Assembly (NCBI GenBank): GCA_028279405.1
Contig: JANQNU010000087.1
Coordinates: 124,001-188,000 of the forward strand
Direction of reading: 5' to 3'
Length of the DNA stretch: 64,000 bases
Source of the DNA: Phycisphaerae bacterium
GTDB taxonomy: Bacteria > Planctomycetota > Phycisphaerae > UBA1845 > Fen-1342
Below the pieces are notes generated by a model. The model saw only the letters and a list, made by a program, of their open reading frames with translations. It ran no database searches and was not told the origin of the DNA. A program made the translations under genes and the position numbers. This document shows, piece by piece, positions 2,086 through 38,452 of this stretch. Position 1 is the stretch's first letter; the number at the start of each line of letters is the position of its first letter.

Positions 2086-2655
2086 ATGATCCGAACGAGG
2101 GTATTGTCTGTAGCTGCACTGTTGAGTTTGCCGTTGCTTGTCGGCTGCATGCCAAAAATGACGGTCGCTGAGATGAAGGCAATGATGCCGGGGCGACCGG
2201 CCGAACTTGACGCGCTCAACGCCTGGGTCGGCGAATGGGAATGGGAAGGTTCCGCGGACTTCGCCATGCTCGAGGCGCCGCTCAAGAGCAAGGGACTGAT
2301 GAAGACGCGTTGGGAAGGCGACGATCGGTACCTGGTGACCGACGGGAAGTGGAGCATGGAGGGCTTGGGGGAGATGATTGGTCACGAGACGTGGACCTAC
2401 GACTCCAAGTCCAAGAGGTATCGGTCGACGTGGGTCGACTCGATGGGCTCGAGCGGAACAGGCGAGGCGCGGCTTGATGCGGACACGAATACGTGGCACT
2501 TCAAAGCCAGCGCGTACACGCCGTTTGGCAAGAACAGTGCGATGGGCACAGCAGTGTTCCTCGACAACGACACGATCGAGTTGATGTGGTGCGAGATGAT
2601 GGGCATGACGAAGACGACCGAGATGCGTGCCGTCGCCAAGCGCGTCAGCCGCTGA
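2086..2655 (+). CDS. DUF1579-like lipoprotein
   Basis: A 189-aa protein with a lipoprotein signal peptide: a basic start (MIRTR), a hydrophobic stretch and the lipobox LVGC, with Cys21 as the expected lipidated residue. The mature part matches DUF1579-type proteins, which carry an LNAWVGEWEWEG start and repeated strands such as TWTYDSKSKRYRSTWVD. These are thought to form a small lipocalin-like barrel. The ribosome-binding site GAAGGGAG sits just before the ATG. A TATAAA box at 2063-2068 could be the -10 element of a short leader. The ligand is unknown. The gene is monocistronic. Confidence 0.75.
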   Translation: MIRTRVLSVAALLSLPLLVGCMPKMTVAEMKAMMPGRPAELDALNAWVGEWEWEGSADFAMLEAPLKSKGLMKTRWEGDDRYLVTDGKWSMEGLGEMIGHETWTYDSKSKRYRSTWVDSMGSSGTGEARLDADTNTWHFKASAYTPFGKNSAMGTAVFLDNDTIELMWCEMMGMTKTTEMRAVAKRVSR

Positions 2656-2697
2656 TCGGCGCGACGAAACCAGGGGGGATCCTGCCAAAAAACGGTG

Positions 2698-2755
2698 CCC
2701 CACCCCATCTTGGGGTGGGGAGTGGCACTGGCGGCTTGTCCGCCAAGTGTTGGGG
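2698..2755. repeat. Intergenic hairpin plus CACTGGC-type repeat copy
   Basis: CCCCACCCCA (2698-2707) and TGGGGTGGGG (2711-2720) form a perfect 10-bp inverted repeat with loop TCT. It is followed at 2725-2754 by a copy of the CACTGGC...TTGTCCGCCA...GTGTT element seen at several other intergenic sites in the window. It lies between convergent genes (plus-strand gene ending 2655, minus-strand gene ending 2802), so it may also act as a terminator. Confidence 0.6.
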
Positions 2756-2801
2756 ATTTCCCTACAGCATGTGGACCCCACACGCTCGAGCCGGCTTGGC
2801 G

Positions 2802-3365
2802 CTAAGGCGTGCGGTCCTTCGCGTCTTTGCGCACGATCTCGCCGCTCATGACGCCGCCGTAGTTGTTGCCGAACCAGGTACCGCAGTAATAGTCGCGGTA
2901 GAACATCACTCGTGCGGAGTATGTTCCGAGCCCCGGAAAAGCGATCTCATCGACCGTGAGGATCGGCGTGTCGCCGGCCCAGACGACGCGCAGACGGATC
3001 GGCAGCGTAACGTCGTTGTCGGCGTATTGAATGCGCGCCCGGATGATCCACCAGTCGTCTACTTCCTTGTGGGCCGAGACAATTTCGTAGCGTTCCGGCC
3101 GCGCCGCACCGAGCGGCTTGTGTGCCCGCAGGTCGTCCGACATTCGCCAGCTGCCCTTGAGCGTCGCGCCGCTGAGCATCTTCGACAGTTGTCGCTCGAG
3201 CGTCGCTTGGTCCGCGTTCGCCGGCTGCGAGCTCGGGGAGCTGTCGCGGGTCGCGCTGGGCACCGCTTCCGCGGCAGTGGCGTCGGTGCTCGACAGCGGC
3301 AGGCGTGTCGTAAGGGCCAGCACTTCGATGAATGCGGCCGGGACGATCCAATACAGATTCCGCAT
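2802..3365 (-). CDS. Conserved-looking hypothetical protein with N-terminal signal/anchor
   Basis: A 187-aa protein beginning MRNLYWIVPAAF, with a hydrophobic N-terminal segment of about 20 residues that could be a signal peptide or membrane anchor. A low-complexity Ala/Ser/Pro linker follows, then a globular beta-rich domain rich in Trp and Tyr (WWIIRARIQY, FYRDYYCGTWFGNNYGG). The ATG at 3365 is chosen because GGAG lies 7 nt upstream. Upstream in-frame ATGs at 3383 and 3467 have no such site. The C-terminal pattern recalls small planctomycete exported proteins, but I do not recognise the family. No catalytic motif is evident. Confidence 0.6.
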   Translation of the reverse strand: MRNLYWIVPAAFIEVLALTTRLPLSSTDATAAEAVPSATRDSSPSSQPANADQATLERQLSKMLSGATLKGSWRMSDDLRAHKPLGAARPERYEIVSAHKEVDDWWIIRARIQYADNDVTLPIRLRVVWAGDTPILTVDEIAFPGLGTYSARVMFYRDYYCGTWFGNNYGGVMSGEIVRKDAKDRTP

Positions 3366-28461: not shown

Positions 28462-29216
28462 CCAAGCGGGTCATCCCCTGCCTCGACGTTCGCGACGGCC
28501 GAATCGTCAAGGGCGTTCAATTCTCGGACCTCCGCGACGCCGGCGATCCAGCGACGCGAGCCGCGGCCTATCAACGTCAGGGTGCCGACGAGATTGTGAT
28601 CCTCGATGTTTCCGCCACGCTCGAAGCGCGGCAGGCGGCACTCGAGACGGTGCGCGCCGTTCGGCGCGTGCTGTCGATTCCGCTGACCGTCGGCGGCGGA
28701 CTACGGACCTGTGCGGATGCGGAGCAACTGCTGGCAGCGGGAGCCGACAAGGTTGCGGTGAATACCGCGGCCGTCGATCGACCGGCAATCCTCACCGAAC
28801 TCGCGGAAGCCTTCGGCGTGCAATGTACCGTGCTTGCGATTGACGCCGCGCGCGTGGCGGATGGAGCGGCGCAATGGGAGGTCGTTACACACGCCGGGCA
28901 AACGCGTACCGGACGTTCGGCTCCGGATTGGGCCTCAGAAGGGGTCGATCGCGGCGCCGGCGAGATCCTGCTCACGAGCTGGGACCGCGACGGTTCGCGT
29001 TCCGGGTACGACCTGATGCTGATCGATGCTGTTGCGCGGCGCGTGTCGGTGCCGATCATCGCGTCCGGCGGAGCGGCCTCAGCCGACCACATGGTGGCAG
29101 CGTTGCAATGCGGGGCGGACGCGGTGTTGGCCGCGTCGGTGTTTCATGATGGAGAGTTTACGGTCGGCGACATCAAGCAGACGCTGGCCGACGCAGGGAC
29201 GGCGGTGCGACGATGA
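28455..29216 (+). CDS. hisF: Imidazole glycerol phosphate synthase, cyclase subunit
   Basis: A 253-aa TIM barrel that closes the imidazole ring and releases AICAR. The opening LTKRVIPCLDVRDGRIVKG carries catalytic Asp11. The second catalytic Asp lies in VLAIDAARV. GGGLR and IASGGAAS are the phosphate-binding loops. The GTG start has GGAGGTGG upstream and overlaps the end of hisH by 7 bp. The stop overlaps the next start by 4 bp, so the whole operon is translationally coupled. Confidence 0.95.
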   Translation: MLTKRVIPCLDVRDGRIVKGVQFSDLRDAGDPATRAAAYQRQGADEIVILDVSATLEARQAALETVRAVRRVLSIPLTVGGGLRTCADAEQLLAAGADKVAVNTAAVDRPAILTELAEAFGVQCTVLAIDAARVADGAAQWEVVTHAGQTRTGRSAPDWASEGVDRGAGEILLTSWDRDGSRSGYDLMLIDAVARRVSVPIIASGGAASADHMVAALQCGADAVLAASVFHDGEFTVGDIKQTLADAGTAVRR

Positions 29217-30544
29217 TGATTCCTTCGATCGATTTGATGAACGGCAATGCTGTGCAGCTTGTCGAAGGTCGCGAAAAGGTGCTCGATGCCGGTGACCCAC
29301 GGCCGCTCGCGGAGCGTTTCGGCCGCATCGGCGAGATCGCCGTAATCGACCTCGACGCGGCGCTCGGGCGCGGGTCCAACGCGCCGCTGATCCGCGAGCT
29401 GCTCGAAATCGCGCCGTGCCGCGTCGGAGGGGGAATTCGCGACGTTGCGTCCGCCGTCCGGTGGCTCGATGCGGGCGCCAGCAAGGTCATTCTGGGGACC
29501 GCGGCGCGACCCGACGTACTGCGCGAGTTGCCGCGCGACCGGACCATCGCGGCGCTCGATGCCCGTCACGATCAGGTGGTCGTGGACGGCTGGCGCACAA
29601 AAACGAGCGCGACCGTCGTGGAACGGATGGACGCGTTGCGCGAGTACGTCTCCGGGTTCCTGGTCACGTTCGTCGAACAGGAAGGTCGGATGCGCGGTTT
29701 ACCGTTCGACCGCGTCCGTGAACTGGTTGCACGTGCCGGTGATGCCCGCGTAACGGTTGCCGGCGGAGTGAAGTCCGCAGACGAGATCGGAGCGGCGGAC
29801 GCCGACGGGGCCGACGTGCAGGTCGGCATGGCGCTCTACAGCGGCGCGTTCGATCTCGCGGACGGTTTCTGTGCCGCATTGCGAAGCGATCGAGCCGACG
29901 GCCTTTGGCCGACGATCGTTGCAGACGAGTCCGGCGTCGCACTCGGTCTGGCCTACTCCAGTCGGGAGAGTATTCGCGCAGCGCTGGAGACCGGGCGCGG
30001 TACCTACTACTCGCGCAGTCGCGGCGGTCTGTGGGAAAAGGGCGCCAGCTCCGGCAACACGCAGGATCTGTTGCGGATCGACGTCGACTGCGATCGGGAT
30101 GCGCTTCGTTTCACCGTTCGGCAGCATGGCGACGGGTTCTGCCACGAAGGTAGTGCAACCTGTTTCGGTGAGATGCGCGGTCTTGGGGCGCTGCAGCGCA
30201 CGCTGCGCGACCGGATCGCGGCGCCGCCGACCGGATCGTACACGGCTCGGCTGATTGGCGATCCCGCGTTGTTGCGGGCAAAGCTTGTGGAGGAGGCCCT
30301 GGAGTTGGCAGCGGCCCGGACGGCGCGGGACGCGGCTTGGGAAGCAGCGGACCTGTTCTACTTCGGGATGGTTGCCGCGTTACGGCAGGGGGCGACGCTG
30401 GAAGGCATTGCTGACCAGCTCGATCGCAGGCAAATGACGGTCACGCGTCGGCGCGGCGACGCAAAGACGCTTGAAAAGCTCACCACTGAATGCGAGGACC
30501 GAGCGGTCGCTCCCGTCATGGTGCCGGGGAGGCAGACCGGATGA
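29213..30544 (+). CDS. hisA: Triple fusion HisA-HisI-HisE
   Basis: A 443-aa three-domain protein. Residues 1-225 are the HisA isomerase barrel (IPSIDLMNG with Asp7, VGGGIRD, Asp116 in IAALDARHD, VAGGVKS). Residues 229-320 are the HisI cyclohydrolase, with YYSRSRGGLWEKG, metal ligands DVDCDRD (292-296) and CHEGSATC (310-317). Residues 326-412 are the HisE pyrophosphatase, with KLVEEALEL (357-365) and EAADLFYF. Thus one polypeptide would carry steps 2, 3 and 4 of the pathway. HisI-HisE fusions are common, but adding HisA in front is not an arrangement I know as standard. All catalytic residues appear intact. hisD starts within its stop codon. Confidence 0.92.
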   Translation: MMIPSIDLMNGNAVQLVEGREKVLDAGDPRPLAERFGRIGEIAVIDLDAALGRGSNAPLIRELLEIAPCRVGGGIRDVASAVRWLDAGASKVILGTAARPDVLRELPRDRTIAALDARHDQVVVDGWRTKTSATVVERMDALREYVSGFLVTFVEQEGRMRGLPFDRVRELVARAGDARVTVAGGVKSADEIGAADADGADVQVGMALYSGAFDLADGFCAALRSDRADGLWPTIVADESGVALGLAYSSRESIRAALETGRGTYYSRSRGGLWEKGASSGNTQDLLRIDVDCDRDALRFTVRQHGDGFCHEGSATCFGEMRGLGALQRTLRDRIAAPPTGSYTARLIGDPALLRAKLVEEALELAAARTARDAAWEAADLFYFGMVAALRQGATLEGIADQLDRRQMTVTRRRGDAKTLEKLTTECEDRAVAPVMVPGRQTG

Positions 30545-31818
30545 GTACGCTACGACGAGTTTCGGCGGAAGCGGTTGCGGCTGCTTGTCGGAGTGCGGTC
30601 GATCCCGCGACGCTGGCGCGTGCCCGGGAGATCGTCGACGATGTTCGCACGCATGGTATCGATGCGGTTCGACGATATGCAGTCCAGTTCGGCGAGCGTC
30701 TTGCGGATGAGCCGCTGGTGCTGGGTCCGGATGTGCTGGCTCGAGCGCTAGCAGAGACGCCGACCGAGGAGCGGGCGCTGCTGGAGCGGACGGCGGCCCG
30801 GATCGAACGCTTCGCGACTGCGCAGCGACAAGCGCTGCACGACGTGACCGTGGACGTTCCGGGTGGCCAGGCCGGCCACACCGTGGTCCCGATTTCGGCG
30901 GTCGGCTGTTATGCGCCCGGGGGGCGTTATCCGTTGCCGTCGTCGGTGCTGATGACGGCGCTGACGGCACGTGTTGCGGGTTGCCCGCGGGTCGTGGTTG
31001 CGTCGCCGGGGGCGTCGCGAACGATGCTGGCGGCGGCGGCATTGAGTGGAGCGGATCAGTTTTTGGCGGTCGGCGGCGCGCACGCGATCGCTGCCCTGGC
31101 GTTTGGGATGGAGGGGATGGCGCCCTGCGATTCGATCGTCGGCCCGGGGAATCGTTGGGTTACGATGGCCAAGCACTTGCTCGTCGGCACGGTGGGGATC
31201 GACATGCTGGCGGGGCCATCGGAATTGCTCGTGTTGGCGGATGGAGCCGCCGACCCGGCCCTCATCGCAGCGGACCTGCTCGCGCAGGCCGAGCACGATG
31301 TGGATGCCGTCCCGATGCTTGTGGCGACGAGCGCGGCGGTGGTCGAGGCGGTGGAGCAAGCGCTCTCGCTTCAATTGCCGAAACTGCCGACCCGCGCCGT
31401 CGCCCGTCAAGCACTCTCCAACGGCTGGGCCTGCGTCGTGCCGGACGTTCCTACGGCGATCCGGCTCGCAAATCGAATTGCCCCAGAGCACCTGCAGATC
31501 ATGACGGAGGATGCGTCGCACGTCGCGCAGGCCATTCGCACCGCCGGCGCAATTTTCGTCGGCGCTGATACTGCCGAGGTCTTTGGGGATTACGGTGCAG
31601 GACCGAACCATACGCTGCCGACCGGTGGGGCGGCGCGCTTCCAGTCGGCGCTCTCGGTTCAGCACTTCGTTCGATTCCAGACCTGGCTGCGGATCGATGA
31701 CAGTGACCGCGCGGACGAGGTACGCGCGGACGCGAGACGCTTGGCGGAGATTGAAGGGCTGACCGGGCATGCGGCTGCGGCTGGTTACCGCGGCGGCAGA
31801 CGTCGCGTTTCGGGTTAG
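30541..31818 (+). CDS. hisD: Histidinol dehydrogenase
   Basis: A 425-aa zinc enzyme that oxidises L-histidinol to L-histidine in two NAD-dependent steps. Landmarks: GCYAPGGRYPLPSS, VGPGNRWVTMAK, DMLAGPSELLV, AQAEHDVDA (catalytic/metal region), RIAPEHLQI, and the C-terminal DYGAGPNHTLPTGG with a conserved His. Length is normal. The start has GGGGAGG upstream and overlaps the previous stop (ATGA). It is the last gene of the operon; no clear terminator follows. Confidence 0.95.
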   Translation: MSTLRRVSAEAVAAACRSAVDPATLARAREIVDDVRTHGIDAVRRYAVQFGERLADEPLVLGPDVLARALAETPTEERALLERTAARIERFATAQRQALHDVTVDVPGGQAGHTVVPISAVGCYAPGGRYPLPSSVLMTALTARVAGCPRVVVASPGASRTMLAAAALSGADQFLAVGGAHAIAALAFGMEGMAPCDSIVGPGNRWVTMAKHLLVGTVGIDMLAGPSELLVLADGAADPALIAADLLAQAEHDVDAVPMLVATSAAVVEAVEQALSLQLPKLPTRAVARQALSNGWACVVPDVPTAIRLANRIAPEHLQIMTEDASHVAQAIRTAGAIFVGADTAEVFGDYGAGPNHTLPTGGAARFQSALSVQHFVRFQTWLRIDDSDRADEVRADARRLAEIEGLTGHAAAAGYRGGRRRVSG

Positions 31819-33779: not shown

Positions 33780-34673
33780 TTACTGGATCGGCTGGTCGGG
33801 CGATCTTGCAGGCGCGTAGATCTTCGCGGCGAGTCGGACGAGTTCTCGCATGTCCTCGGCGTAGCCAAAGTAACTCATTCGAGCGCGCATTTCTGATGTC
33901 AGCGCGCGGCCTCCGACGAGCACTTGAATTCCGAGTTCGCGCGCGTGCTGAGCGAGCCCGCCGTAGTCGTTCAAGAATTGCGCTGTCGATTCGACATGGC
34001 TGACACTGAGCCAGAGAAGATCCGGCTGCACGTCGGTGCAGGCTTGCACCAGAGTGTGAACCGGATGCCCGCAGCCGTAAGATTGGGCGCGCCATCCGGC
34101 TTCGCGCAGTACCGTCTCGACCATCATCGTCGGGAGCATATACAGGTCGCCGGCGAGCGTTCCGCCGATGGCGCGGGGTGCATTTGCATCGGGGGCGGGC
34201 AGGGTGGCACACAATCGATGCAACTCGCGCAATGCGAGTTCTACCGCTCGGCGCTCTTCGTAGATCGCTGTTGTGCCGGAGGCAAACTGGTTCCCGATTT
34301 GGTGAAAGACCGGTGTGATGTAGCGATCGAGAATGTCAACGGCACTCTCGCCGGCCAGATACAAGCCGAAGATGATACTGCGAATCTCCTGCTCGCGCCC
34401 GATATCAAAGGCTTGTTGCAGTCTTTCGTGCAGGTCGGATGACGCCTGTTGCAGCAGCGCGTGCGTTGTCGGCAGGCCGAGGATGGACGGGCGGACGACG
34501 TCCATCTTCTGGGCGCGAACGAACTGGATGACGCCGTTGGTCGGTAGCCGGCGGTGGCCGCCGGGCGTACGAACCGCTGGTAGCAATCCTTGGTCACACC
34601 ATCGTTTCAGCGATGCTTCGGAAACGCCGAGGGCCCGCGCGGCTTGTCGAGTTGTCAGGACATCAAGGTTCAT
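33780..34673 (-). CDS. CarH-like regulator (MerR-type HTH plus B12-binding-type fold) with lost cobalamin ligand
   Basis: A 297-aa transcription regulator. Residues 5-45 (LTTRQAARALGVSEASLKRW...TPGGHRR) are a MerR/excisionase-type winged HTH. A helical domain (about 80-160) and a Rossmann-like B12-binding fold (about 165-285; LAGDLYMLPTMMVETVLREAGW) follow. This is the layout of CarA/CarH/LitR. In cobalamin sensors the motif is E/DxHxxG; here it is Asp176-Leu-Tyr178-Met-Leu-Pro181, lacking the histidine ligand and the glycine. It therefore probably does not bind B12 in the usual base-off mode, as proposed for some CarA-like paralogues. It is transcribed divergently from the selenoprotein candidate. 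Confidence 0.8.
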   Translation of the reverse strand: MNLDVLTTRQAARALGVSEASLKRWCDQGLLPAVRTPGGHRRLPTNGVIQFVRAQKMDVVRPSILGLPTTHALLQQASSDLHERLQQAFDIGREQEIRSIIFGLYLAGESAVDILDRYITPVFHQIGNQFASGTTAIYEERRAVELALRELHRLCATLPAPDANAPRAIGGTLAGDLYMLPTMMVETVLREAGWRAQSYGCGHPVHTLVQACTDVQPDLLWLSVSHVESTAQFLNDYGGLAQHARELGIQVLVGGRALTSEMRARMSYFGYAEDMRELVRLAAKIYAPARSPDQPIQ

Positions 34674-34832: not shown

Positions 34833-34892
34833 AGCCGTTGGGTCACGGTGTTTCGGGCCGGCCACGCGGTGCTGCGCTGTAACGGAGTCACG

Positions 34893-35663
34893 ATGCCAGA
34901 TGCGCCGATCGATACGGATCCAGTGAAGCGACGATTGTGGCTCGTGCTGCTGGGCCTGGGCCTGATTGTGCTGAGTCCGGTCGGTTGGGCCTGGACGCTC
35001 GACGATGCGCTGCTGCAGCGGACGGGGCTCGTGATGTGGCTGGTGATGGGAATGGGATTGGCTGCCAGCCTGGTTGCGGCCCGTGGTGATTCGCGCGCCC
35101 GAACGCGAGTGCTCGCGACGGCGAATCTGGTTCTCGTCTCGTTGGCGGTCGTGGGGTTCTTTGGCTTGACGAAGCTGCCGGCGCCGGATGCGTTTTCTGA
35201 GGTGCGGCACATACCGGAATTCGAGCTCCCGGATCATACGGGGACGATGCGGTCGCTGGCGGATCTGTTGCGTGACGGATCGCTCCTGCTCGTGTTTTAC
35301 CGTGGTCATTGGTGACTTTCGTGCAATGCGGAACTCCGCGGGCTCGGAGGCATCACACCCGGTTTGAAGCGTCTTGGCGTCGCGATCGCGGCGATCAGCG
35401 TCGATTCGCCGCGCGAATCGCGGAGGGTTGTCGACCGGAATCGCTTACCGTTTCCAATTCTCGCCGACGAGTCGCGTGATCTGGTCCGGACGCTGGGTCT
35501 GTTGCATCGTGGCGGCGGCCCGGGTGGCGAAGACATCGCGATCCCCACGCTGCTGCTGATCGACCCTGCTCGCGGGATCCGCTGGCGATTCGTCTCTGAT
35601 CGAATCCAGAATCGAATGTCCGCCGGGGACGTTTTGGTTCGGGTCCAGGAGGCGCTTCAGTAG
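34893..35663 (+). CDS. Probable selenocysteine-containing membrane redoxin (AhpC/TSA-like), TGA read as Sec141
   Basis: Read through the TGA at 35313-35315, this frame gives one 256-aa protein. Three N-terminal hydrophobic segments (about 14-34, 46-64, 74-94) precede a thioredoxin-fold redoxin domain with PEFELPDHTG, LLLVFYRGHW-U-LSC-NAEL, AIAAISVDSP, FPILADES and PTLLLIDP. Relatives read FYRGxWCPxC, so the TGA falls exactly on the catalytic cysteine, leaving a U-x-x-C motif (Sec141, Cys144). Both halves are in the same frame and no other stop interrupts them. The ATG at 34893 has GGAG five bases upstream. A hairpin just after the TGA (35334-35349) fits a bacterial SECIS. The alternative is a pseudogene by nonsense mutation; domain conservation on both sides argues against it. 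Confidence 0.8.
35334..35349 (+). promoter_or_regulatory. Candidate bacterial SECIS element
   Basis: CTCCG (35334-35338), loop CGGGCT, CGGAG (35345-35349). The loop begins 23 nt after the TGA and has G at its second position. Bacterial SECIS elements lie just downstream of UGA in the coding region with a short GC stem and a G near the start of the apical loop. An overlapping alternative stem GCGG/CCGC (35328-35339) exists. Confidence 0.55.
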
Positions 35664-37161: not shown

Positions 37162-37483
37162 GGTCGGCTCCCGTTTGAAGCTGGCGTTGCTTCCGTGGAC
37201 GATGCTGACGAATCCTACTCGTACACGCGATTCGCGAGAAGGCGACTTGGATGCCCTCTGCTAGGAGCGCGTCAGCGAGTTTCGCAGGGTAGAACCCCGG
37301 GGTACGGGAGCGGGCGAGACGCCCGCCCCACCCTGGTAAACGCACGGCTCGAACACTGGCGGACAGGCTTGTCGTGTGCGTCGAGGGGCGTCGGGCGATC
37401 CGGTTGTGGCTGGCCGTCATTGGCGTGGTTGCGCTATAATCCGCTCAAAACCGATTCCCCCCAACTCTCAAGAAGAGGCGTAC
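37162..37483. other. Gene-free spacer with reversed repeats and trxB -10 box
   Basis: The 322-bp gap between divergent genes contains a reversed GC-rich hairpin (GCGGGCG-AGA-CGCCCGC, 37310-37326, followed by CCCACCC) and a reversed CACTGGC-type copy (37351-37373). TATAAT at 37435-37440 is a likely -10 element for trxB, start near 37447, without a good -35 hexamer. Confidence 0.6.
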
Positions 37484-38452
37484 ATGAGCGTGGAGAAAGT
37501 TGTCATCGTCGGATCCGGACCTGCAGGATTGACCGCTGCGATTTATGCAGCCCGGGCAGCGCTGAAGCCGCTCATGTTCGAGGGGTTCTCGGCCGGCGGG
37601 CTGATTCCCGGTGGACAGCTGATGTTCACGACGGACGTCGAGAACTACCCCGGGTTTCCGGAAGGTGTCATGGGGCCGAAGATGATGAAGATGTTCCGCG
37701 ATCAGGCCGAGCGCTTCGGGACGCGGTTCATTCGCGAAGACGTGACCCAGGTCGACCTGTCGAAGCGGCCGTTCACGGTTCGCAGCGACGAGAACGAGGT
37801 TCAGGCCCATTCCGTCATCATCTCCACGGGCGCCCGGGCCAACTGGCTCGAGTTGCCGAACGAGCAGCGGCTGGCGAAGGCTGGCGGCGGCGTATCCGCG
37901 TGCGCGGTCTGTGACGGGGCGTTGCCGGTCTTTCGCGATCAGGAGCTGGTCGTCGTCGGCGGAGGTGATTCCGCAGTCGAGGAGGCGAGTTATCTGACCA
38001 AGTTCGCTCGCAAGGTCTACTTGGTCCATCGTCGCGATGCGCTGCGTGCGAGCCAGATCATGCAGGAACGGGCCTTCAAGTTGGTCGAGGAGGGCAAGCT
38101 CGAGATCGTCTGGGATACGCAGGTCACAGATGTGCTCGGGGATGAGTTCATTTCAGGCGTGGAGCTGCAGAATATCAAGAACAACGAGACACGTGAGTTC
38201 CCGTGCAAGGGGCTGTTTCTGGCGATCGGGCACACGCCGAACACGGAGCTGTTCAAGGAGTTCCTCGACCTCGACGATGGCAAGTACATCAAGCTGAAGA
38301 CCCCTGGCCGGAGCTTTACGAACGTGGACGGTGTTTTCGCCGCCGGCGATGTTGCGGACCATATCTATCGTCAGGCAGTGACGGCTGCCGGGACCGGTTG
38401 CATGGCCGCGATCGACGCGGAGCGCTGGTTGGCGGCACAGGGAATCGAATGA
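37484..38452 (+). CDS. trxB: Thioredoxin reductase
   Basis: A 322-aa FAD flavoprotein that transfers electrons from NADPH to thioredoxin. FAD-binding GSGPAGLTAAIYAARA (10-25), redox-active CAVC (Cys140, Cys143; most relatives have CATC), NADPH loop VVVGGGDSAVEEASYL and the C-terminal FAD motif GVFAAGDVAD. It is the low-molecular-weight type without a C-terminal redox tail. It has AGAGG upstream. Its stop overlaps the start of the next gene. It lies 2 kb from the candidate selenoredoxin, though in a separate transcription unit. Confidence 0.95.
   Translation: MSVEKVVIVGSGPAGLTAAIYAARAALKPLMFEGFSAGGLIPGGQLMFTTDVENYPGFPEGVMGPKMMKMFRDQAERFGTRFIREDVTQVDLSKRPFTVRSDENEVQAHSVIISTGARANWLELPNEQRLAKAGGGVSACAVCDGALPVFRDQELVVVGGGDSAVEEASYLTKFARKVYLVHRRDALRASQIMQERAFKLVEEGKLEIVWDTQVTDVLGDEFISGVELQNIKNNETREFPCKGLFLAIGHTPNTELFKEFLDLDDGKYIKLKTPGRSFTNVDGVFAAGDVADHIYRQAVTAAGTGCMAAIDAERWLAAQGIE

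Follow-up and report, generated by a model that had tools for sequence, protein, structure and literature searches.

The window analysed here is a 64,000-nucleotide stretch of DNA, positions 124001-188000 of contig C23 in genome G000 (5.63 Mb, 95.5% complete). On its forward strand, at 34893..35663, lies a gene that we interpret as encoding a selenoprotein, a membrane-anchored AhpC-TSA/redoxin-domain protein. Its coding frame (34893-35660, closed by a TAG stop at 35661-35663) yields 256 amino acids if the lone in-frame stop, TGA at 35313-35315, is read as selenocysteine (Sec141), and a likely Shine-Dalgarno motif, GGAG at 34884..34887, stands 5 nt 5' of the ATG. The N-terminal part (34893..35190) is predicted from hydropathy and AlphaFold2 helices to form three membrane helices, and is followed by an AhpC-TSA domain of peroxiredoxin fold (PF00578; residues 106-231, 35208..35585), whose profile match spans the TGA with 81.1 bits against a cut-off of 26 (E = 8.2e-23). 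The putative Sec codon occupies position 1 of a UxxC motif, in the context FYRGHW-U-LSC-NAEL, with its partner Cys144 encoded by the TGC at 35322..35324; shortly 3' of it, a SECIS-like hairpin extends over 35326..35353 (MFE -8.5 kcal/mol for 35325-35354).

The initial annotation had described a frame starting at 34893 and broken solely by this TGA, with Cys144 intact and with both flanks in one frame and matching a redoxin fold. The recomputed frame agrees in each respect: Cys144 is invariant in the family alignment, the domain match runs across the TGA, and GC content by codon position is equal on either side (0.70/0.46/0.74 5' of the TGA and 0.71/0.50/0.70 3' of it), so that both halves look coding in a single frame.

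The gene is adjoined divergently by a regulator with a MerR-type HTH and a B12-binding domain (window 33780-34673, reverse strand). A trxB gene lies about 1.7 kb downstream (37376-38452), behind an LCAT-like gene on the opposite strand, and we therefore do not claim an operon. A conserved gene neighbourhood that would name a substrate or partner was sought among relatives and not found. Elsewhere in the window, a HisA-HisI-HisE fusion (29213-30544, forward strand) joins His_biosynth, PRA-CH and PRA-PH within a single frame of 443 aa, with hisD next after it (30490-31818).

The genome encodes the machinery that selenocysteine insertion would require. All four genes that the initial annotation proposed searching for are present above curated cut-offs: selA (554.9 bits, cut-off 267.9), selB (278.6, cut-off 242.25), selD (372.7, cut-off 125) and selC (66.5, cut-off 47), the last of these on the same contig at 200494-200588, about 12.5 kb beyond the window end, with CUUCAAA in the anticodon loop of the tRNA-Sec. 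The selD gene is itself UGA-coded, at CAG-U-AGK (L017, G000:C92:136693-137619), and a second AhpC-TSA gene with an in-frame TGA, at TTYRAFW-U-PFC (L162:405-1415; G000:C12:25404-26414), is likely another UxxC selenoprotein.

TGA terminates 20 of the 36 long ORFs within the window; it is therefore an ordinary stop in this genome too, and recoding must be specific. This bears on the idea that the TGA is a sequencing error or a reassigned codon (for example TGA = Trp), which draws on its being one base from TGC, TGT and TGG. We give that idea almost no credence, as the TGA agrees across independent assemblies, the same triplet closes the 20 ORFs just mentioned, no TGA interrupts the reading frame of selA or of selB, and the replacement found in relatives is Cys, not Trp.

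Conservation of the Sec column among relatives

Among 27 genomes of the same family we identified five homologues in other genera (37-44% identity), all of which contain a single TGA, placed in FYRG[HF]W-U-xxC. Across the phylum, matches occur in 56 of 392 genomes and carry TGA in 43. A search across 84,980 species genomes, run with X at the Sec column to avoid selecting for TGA, returned 80 loci, the nearest in Phycisphaerae and other Planctomycetota, followed by Myxococcota, Acidobacteriota, Verrucomicrobiota and further groups. In plasmid and phage collections there were distant redoxins only, or no match. At the exact motif column, TGA occurs in 101 of 112 relatives from many phyla and a Cys codon in the remaining 11 (the 112 include some genes counted twice as separate loci). 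Homologues thus show either residue at this column, as the initial annotation had suggested checking; its statement that relatives read FYRGxWCPxC holds for the Cys forms, but the nearest relatives have U.

If the window gene were an AhpC-TSA pseudogene, disabled by a nonsense TGA, it would equally present an in-frame TGA, and recoding is here predicted from sequence. Such decay is nevertheless extremely improbable: the same TGA column is retained at 30-50% identity over genera and phyla (101 sequences), coding periodicity goes on 3' of the TGA, all Sec genes are present in the genome, and no further stops or frameshifts were seen in the gene itself or in close homologues, where the initial annotation had named TGA at unrelated positions and accumulated frameshifts as the mark of a pseudogene.

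The tree places the window protein in a Planctomycetota clade (30 rows, support 99/96) that has Sec throughout, and the Cys forms fall mainly in a separate group. One Cys form, L152 (match 2603-3016), has TGC in FYRGHWCPFC and three predicted membrane helices and is nested among Sec forms; it retains the downstream hairpin (GCTGCAGGATCTGCAGC) and is likely a Sec-to-Cys change. Three Desulfobulbaceae sequences (L135, L136 and L140) read FYRGGW-U-PYC, show no predicted membrane helices and sit inside the mostly-Cys group, apparently a separate Sec/Cys exchange.

A tRNA-Sec was detected in 41 of the 43 phylum genomes with a TGA homologue and in 190 of the other 349 (Fisher p = 3e-8, a value that overstates independence because the genomes are related). 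The two TGA genomes in which it was not detected, G240 (67% complete) and G215 (88% complete), are both incomplete assemblies.

The SECIS-like hairpin

The hairpin is built from a CTCCG stem at 35334-35338, beginning 18 nt past the TGA, paired with CGGAG at 35345-35349 around the loop CGGGCT (CGGGCU in RNA; 35339-35344, 23 nt past the TGA), and is extended by outer pairing of ATGC with GCAT (35326-35329/35350-35353). The coordinates and both spacings in the initial annotation were exact on recheck. Its further claim that the hairpin lies within the bacterial SECIS range also stands: the bacterial model, as quoted in PMC13188914, specifies a loop of 3-9 nt with G in positions 1-2, a stem of 4-16 bp, a distance of 16-37 nt from the UGA and an MFE of -7.5 or lower, and the window hairpin has a 6-nt loop with G at position 2, 5 bp, 23 nt and -8.5. 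Taken by itself, the window hairpin does not stand out from its synonymous shuffles (p = 0.51), other folded stretches around it form competing structures of similar energy, and Rfam at gathering cut-offs gave no SECIS match in the window. Support for the putative RNA element comes from the set of relatives rather than from the window sequence by itself.

Among those relatives, the best hairpin of TGA members exceeds those of their synonymous shuffles in strength (mean z -1.54 over 93 members), and that of Cys members does not (mean z -0.02, n = 11). Codon choice in the members with an ELxGLG motif, whose loops are mostly GGUC or CGGGCU, is strongly restricted: all 26 use CTC for Leu +7 (p = 7e-18 against a background of 0.22), and 21 of the 26 use GGA for Gly +11 (background 0.10), with backgrounds taken from the sampled rest of the same members' genes. 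Where CAA (Gln) has replaced CGA (Arg), the Leu codon opposite is CTT in place of CTC in 3/3 distinct sequences, and compensatory pairs are seen as G-C (24) or A-U (3) at one position and C-G (26) or U-A (1) at another. ELQGLQ-type members combine CAA with TTG (12) or CAG with CTG (3) and never mix them, both changes being synonymous. In the counted structure 93% of cells are paired, against 34-64% in slid versions, and two pairs have changed on both sides; on the covariation score, one slid version falls slightly above the counted structure. With their synonymous compensatory changes and the hairpin-bearing Cys form L152, the relatives offer clean natural material for studying how bacterial SECIS elements evolve.

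Predicted fold, topology and mechanism

An AlphaFold2 model built with 39 family members has a mean pLDDT of 95.8 and, together with hydropathy, places long helices at about residues 10-34, 46-65 and 69-92, followed by the peroxiredoxin-like domain. Compared with the PDB, residues 100-256 match peroxiredoxins with Z up to 22.9, Bcp/PrxQ and AhpE being nearest, and Sec141 is modelled immediately N-terminal of helix 142-153. In peroxiredoxin alignments Sec141 falls in the Thr/Ser column of (T/S)xxC and Cys144 in the column of the peroxidatic Cys, so that a UxxC of the thioredoxin-like type sits on a fold of the peroxiredoxin type. The proposal in the initial annotation that the TGA replaces the catalytic cysteine stands when judged against the CxxC relatives and thioredoxin-type chemistry, but the position is not that of the classical peroxidatic Cys. 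Both the Sec and the Cys positions of the ULSC motif are invariant in the family alignment, and beyond the TGA there is little or no variation at C144, E147, L148, D192, W231 and R241.

The combination of a three-helix membrane part with a redoxin domain, thought at first to be unusual, is conserved across relatives and standard in the clade. Lys and Arg per loop average 2.38, 1.23, 3.67 and 1.0 over 52 three-helix members; by the positive-inside rule this distribution favours an N-in/C-out orientation, and the redox domain is accordingly predicted to be extracytoplasmic. Several distant Sec relatives (L067, L072, L079, L075 and L080) look lipoprotein-like by eye, in agreement with an envelope function. 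The family occurs widely among uncultured Planctomycetota and their relatives, and its membrane-anchored form is nearly always Sec: sampled members with two or more predicted helices comprise 57 with TGA and 1 with Cys, a ratio that suggests a preference for selenium chemistry at the cell envelope.

The ORF that ends at the TGA encodes a 140-residue product holding the complete three-helix membrane part, and Sec insertion is generally inefficient at low selenium; both would fit regulated truncation, with this short product as the main one and the UGA as a selenium-dependent switch. We consider this very unlikely, given that the six residues listed above are conserved past the TGA and that the full protein is made by the Cys forms, including the three-helix L152 (TGC) among the Sec forms.

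Comparison across genomes shows an intact gene, a conserved Sec column, the Sec machinery, a conserved hairpin and a predicted fold, and we hold it highly probable that the window gene is a functional selenoprotein gene whose TGA at 35313-35315 codes for Sec at the active site. Sec insertion itself, and the topology, chemistry, substrate and partner described below, we infer. The UGA would be decoded by SelB with Sec-tRNA(Sec), steered by the hairpin immediately 3' of it. The three-helix N-terminal anchor, oriented N-in/C-out, would hold the peroxiredoxin-fold domain outside the cytoplasm, with the U-x-x-C active site where the domain's first main helix begins. There, in the mechanism we think most likely, the Sec141 selenolate would attack a disulfide or peroxide substrate, and Cys144 would resolve the intermediate to give an intramolecular selenenyl-sulfide, which would be re-reduced by a thioredoxin-like partner. 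We regard this extracytoplasmic UxxC mechanism as reasonably likely, and predict that the protein, tethered to the cytoplasmic membrane, most likely works as a thiol oxidoreductase or a thiol peroxidase that depends on Sec.

Relation to known selenoproteins and redoxins

Selenoproteins of the Prx-like UxxC kind have been known since 2005, when 22 sequences were reported in a Sargasso Sea survey (PMC1088965); 225 sequences of 'Prx-like 1' were later reported in the GOS survey (PMC2398784), and a 2026 review counts Prx-like UxxC among predicted selenoproteins of high confidence (PMC13188914). The window gene is a sound new member of this kind. Like the Prx-like thiol:disulfide oxidoreductases (PF00578, UxxC/UxxU), it scores above the PF00578 cut-off, carries Sec for the first Cys of CxxC, with Cys-containing relatives at that position, and has a SECIS-like hairpin within the published constraints close 3' of the UGA, in a genome with Sec machinery; the comparison was made with the published description of the family, whose representative is WP_010940744.1. 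It differs in its three conserved membrane helices, a membrane part going unmentioned in the accessible portions of PMC1088965, PMC2398784 and PMC13188914. In the literature searched, which lacked most subscription journals and is for that reason weak evidence of novelty, we found no description of a membrane-anchored UxxC redoxin.

Whether the sequences form an undescribed subfamily, defined by a three-helix anchor and a predicted extracytoplasmic UxxC redoxin, with Sec in all Planctomycetota clade members sampled and with further members in Myxococcota, Acidobacteriota and Verrucomicrobiota, we judge to be an even call. If it is so, they would represent an envelope redox enzyme that depends on selenium. 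Ordinary annotation would split or truncate the window gene and its counterparts in many bacteria.

Among NCBIfam models, that of the SelL-related redox protein (NF040769), a Prx-like redoxin, is matched by 39/39 aligned members, more than any other, but the window protein reaches 51.5 bits against its cut-off of 120. SelL proper has UxxU, and the window protein UxxC. With the Sec peroxiredoxins (PF00578, TxxU) the window protein shares the peroxiredoxin fold (Bcp-type 5epf and 3hjp at Z of about 22.8); in those proteins, however, Sec is the peroxidatic residue, whereas here Sec lies in the Thr/Ser column and Cys144 in the peroxidatic one. The peroxiredoxin-like selenoprotein of cd02970 has UxxS, in contrast to ULSC in the window. 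Finally, ResA/TlpA proteins are membrane-tethered and extracytoplasmic with a CxxC-type active site, features that the window protein shares by prediction. The anchor of ResA is one helix, compared with three here; the window protein scores 34.3 bits with the ResA model (NF002854, cut-off 170), and its best fold matches are to Bcp/PrxQ and AhpE.
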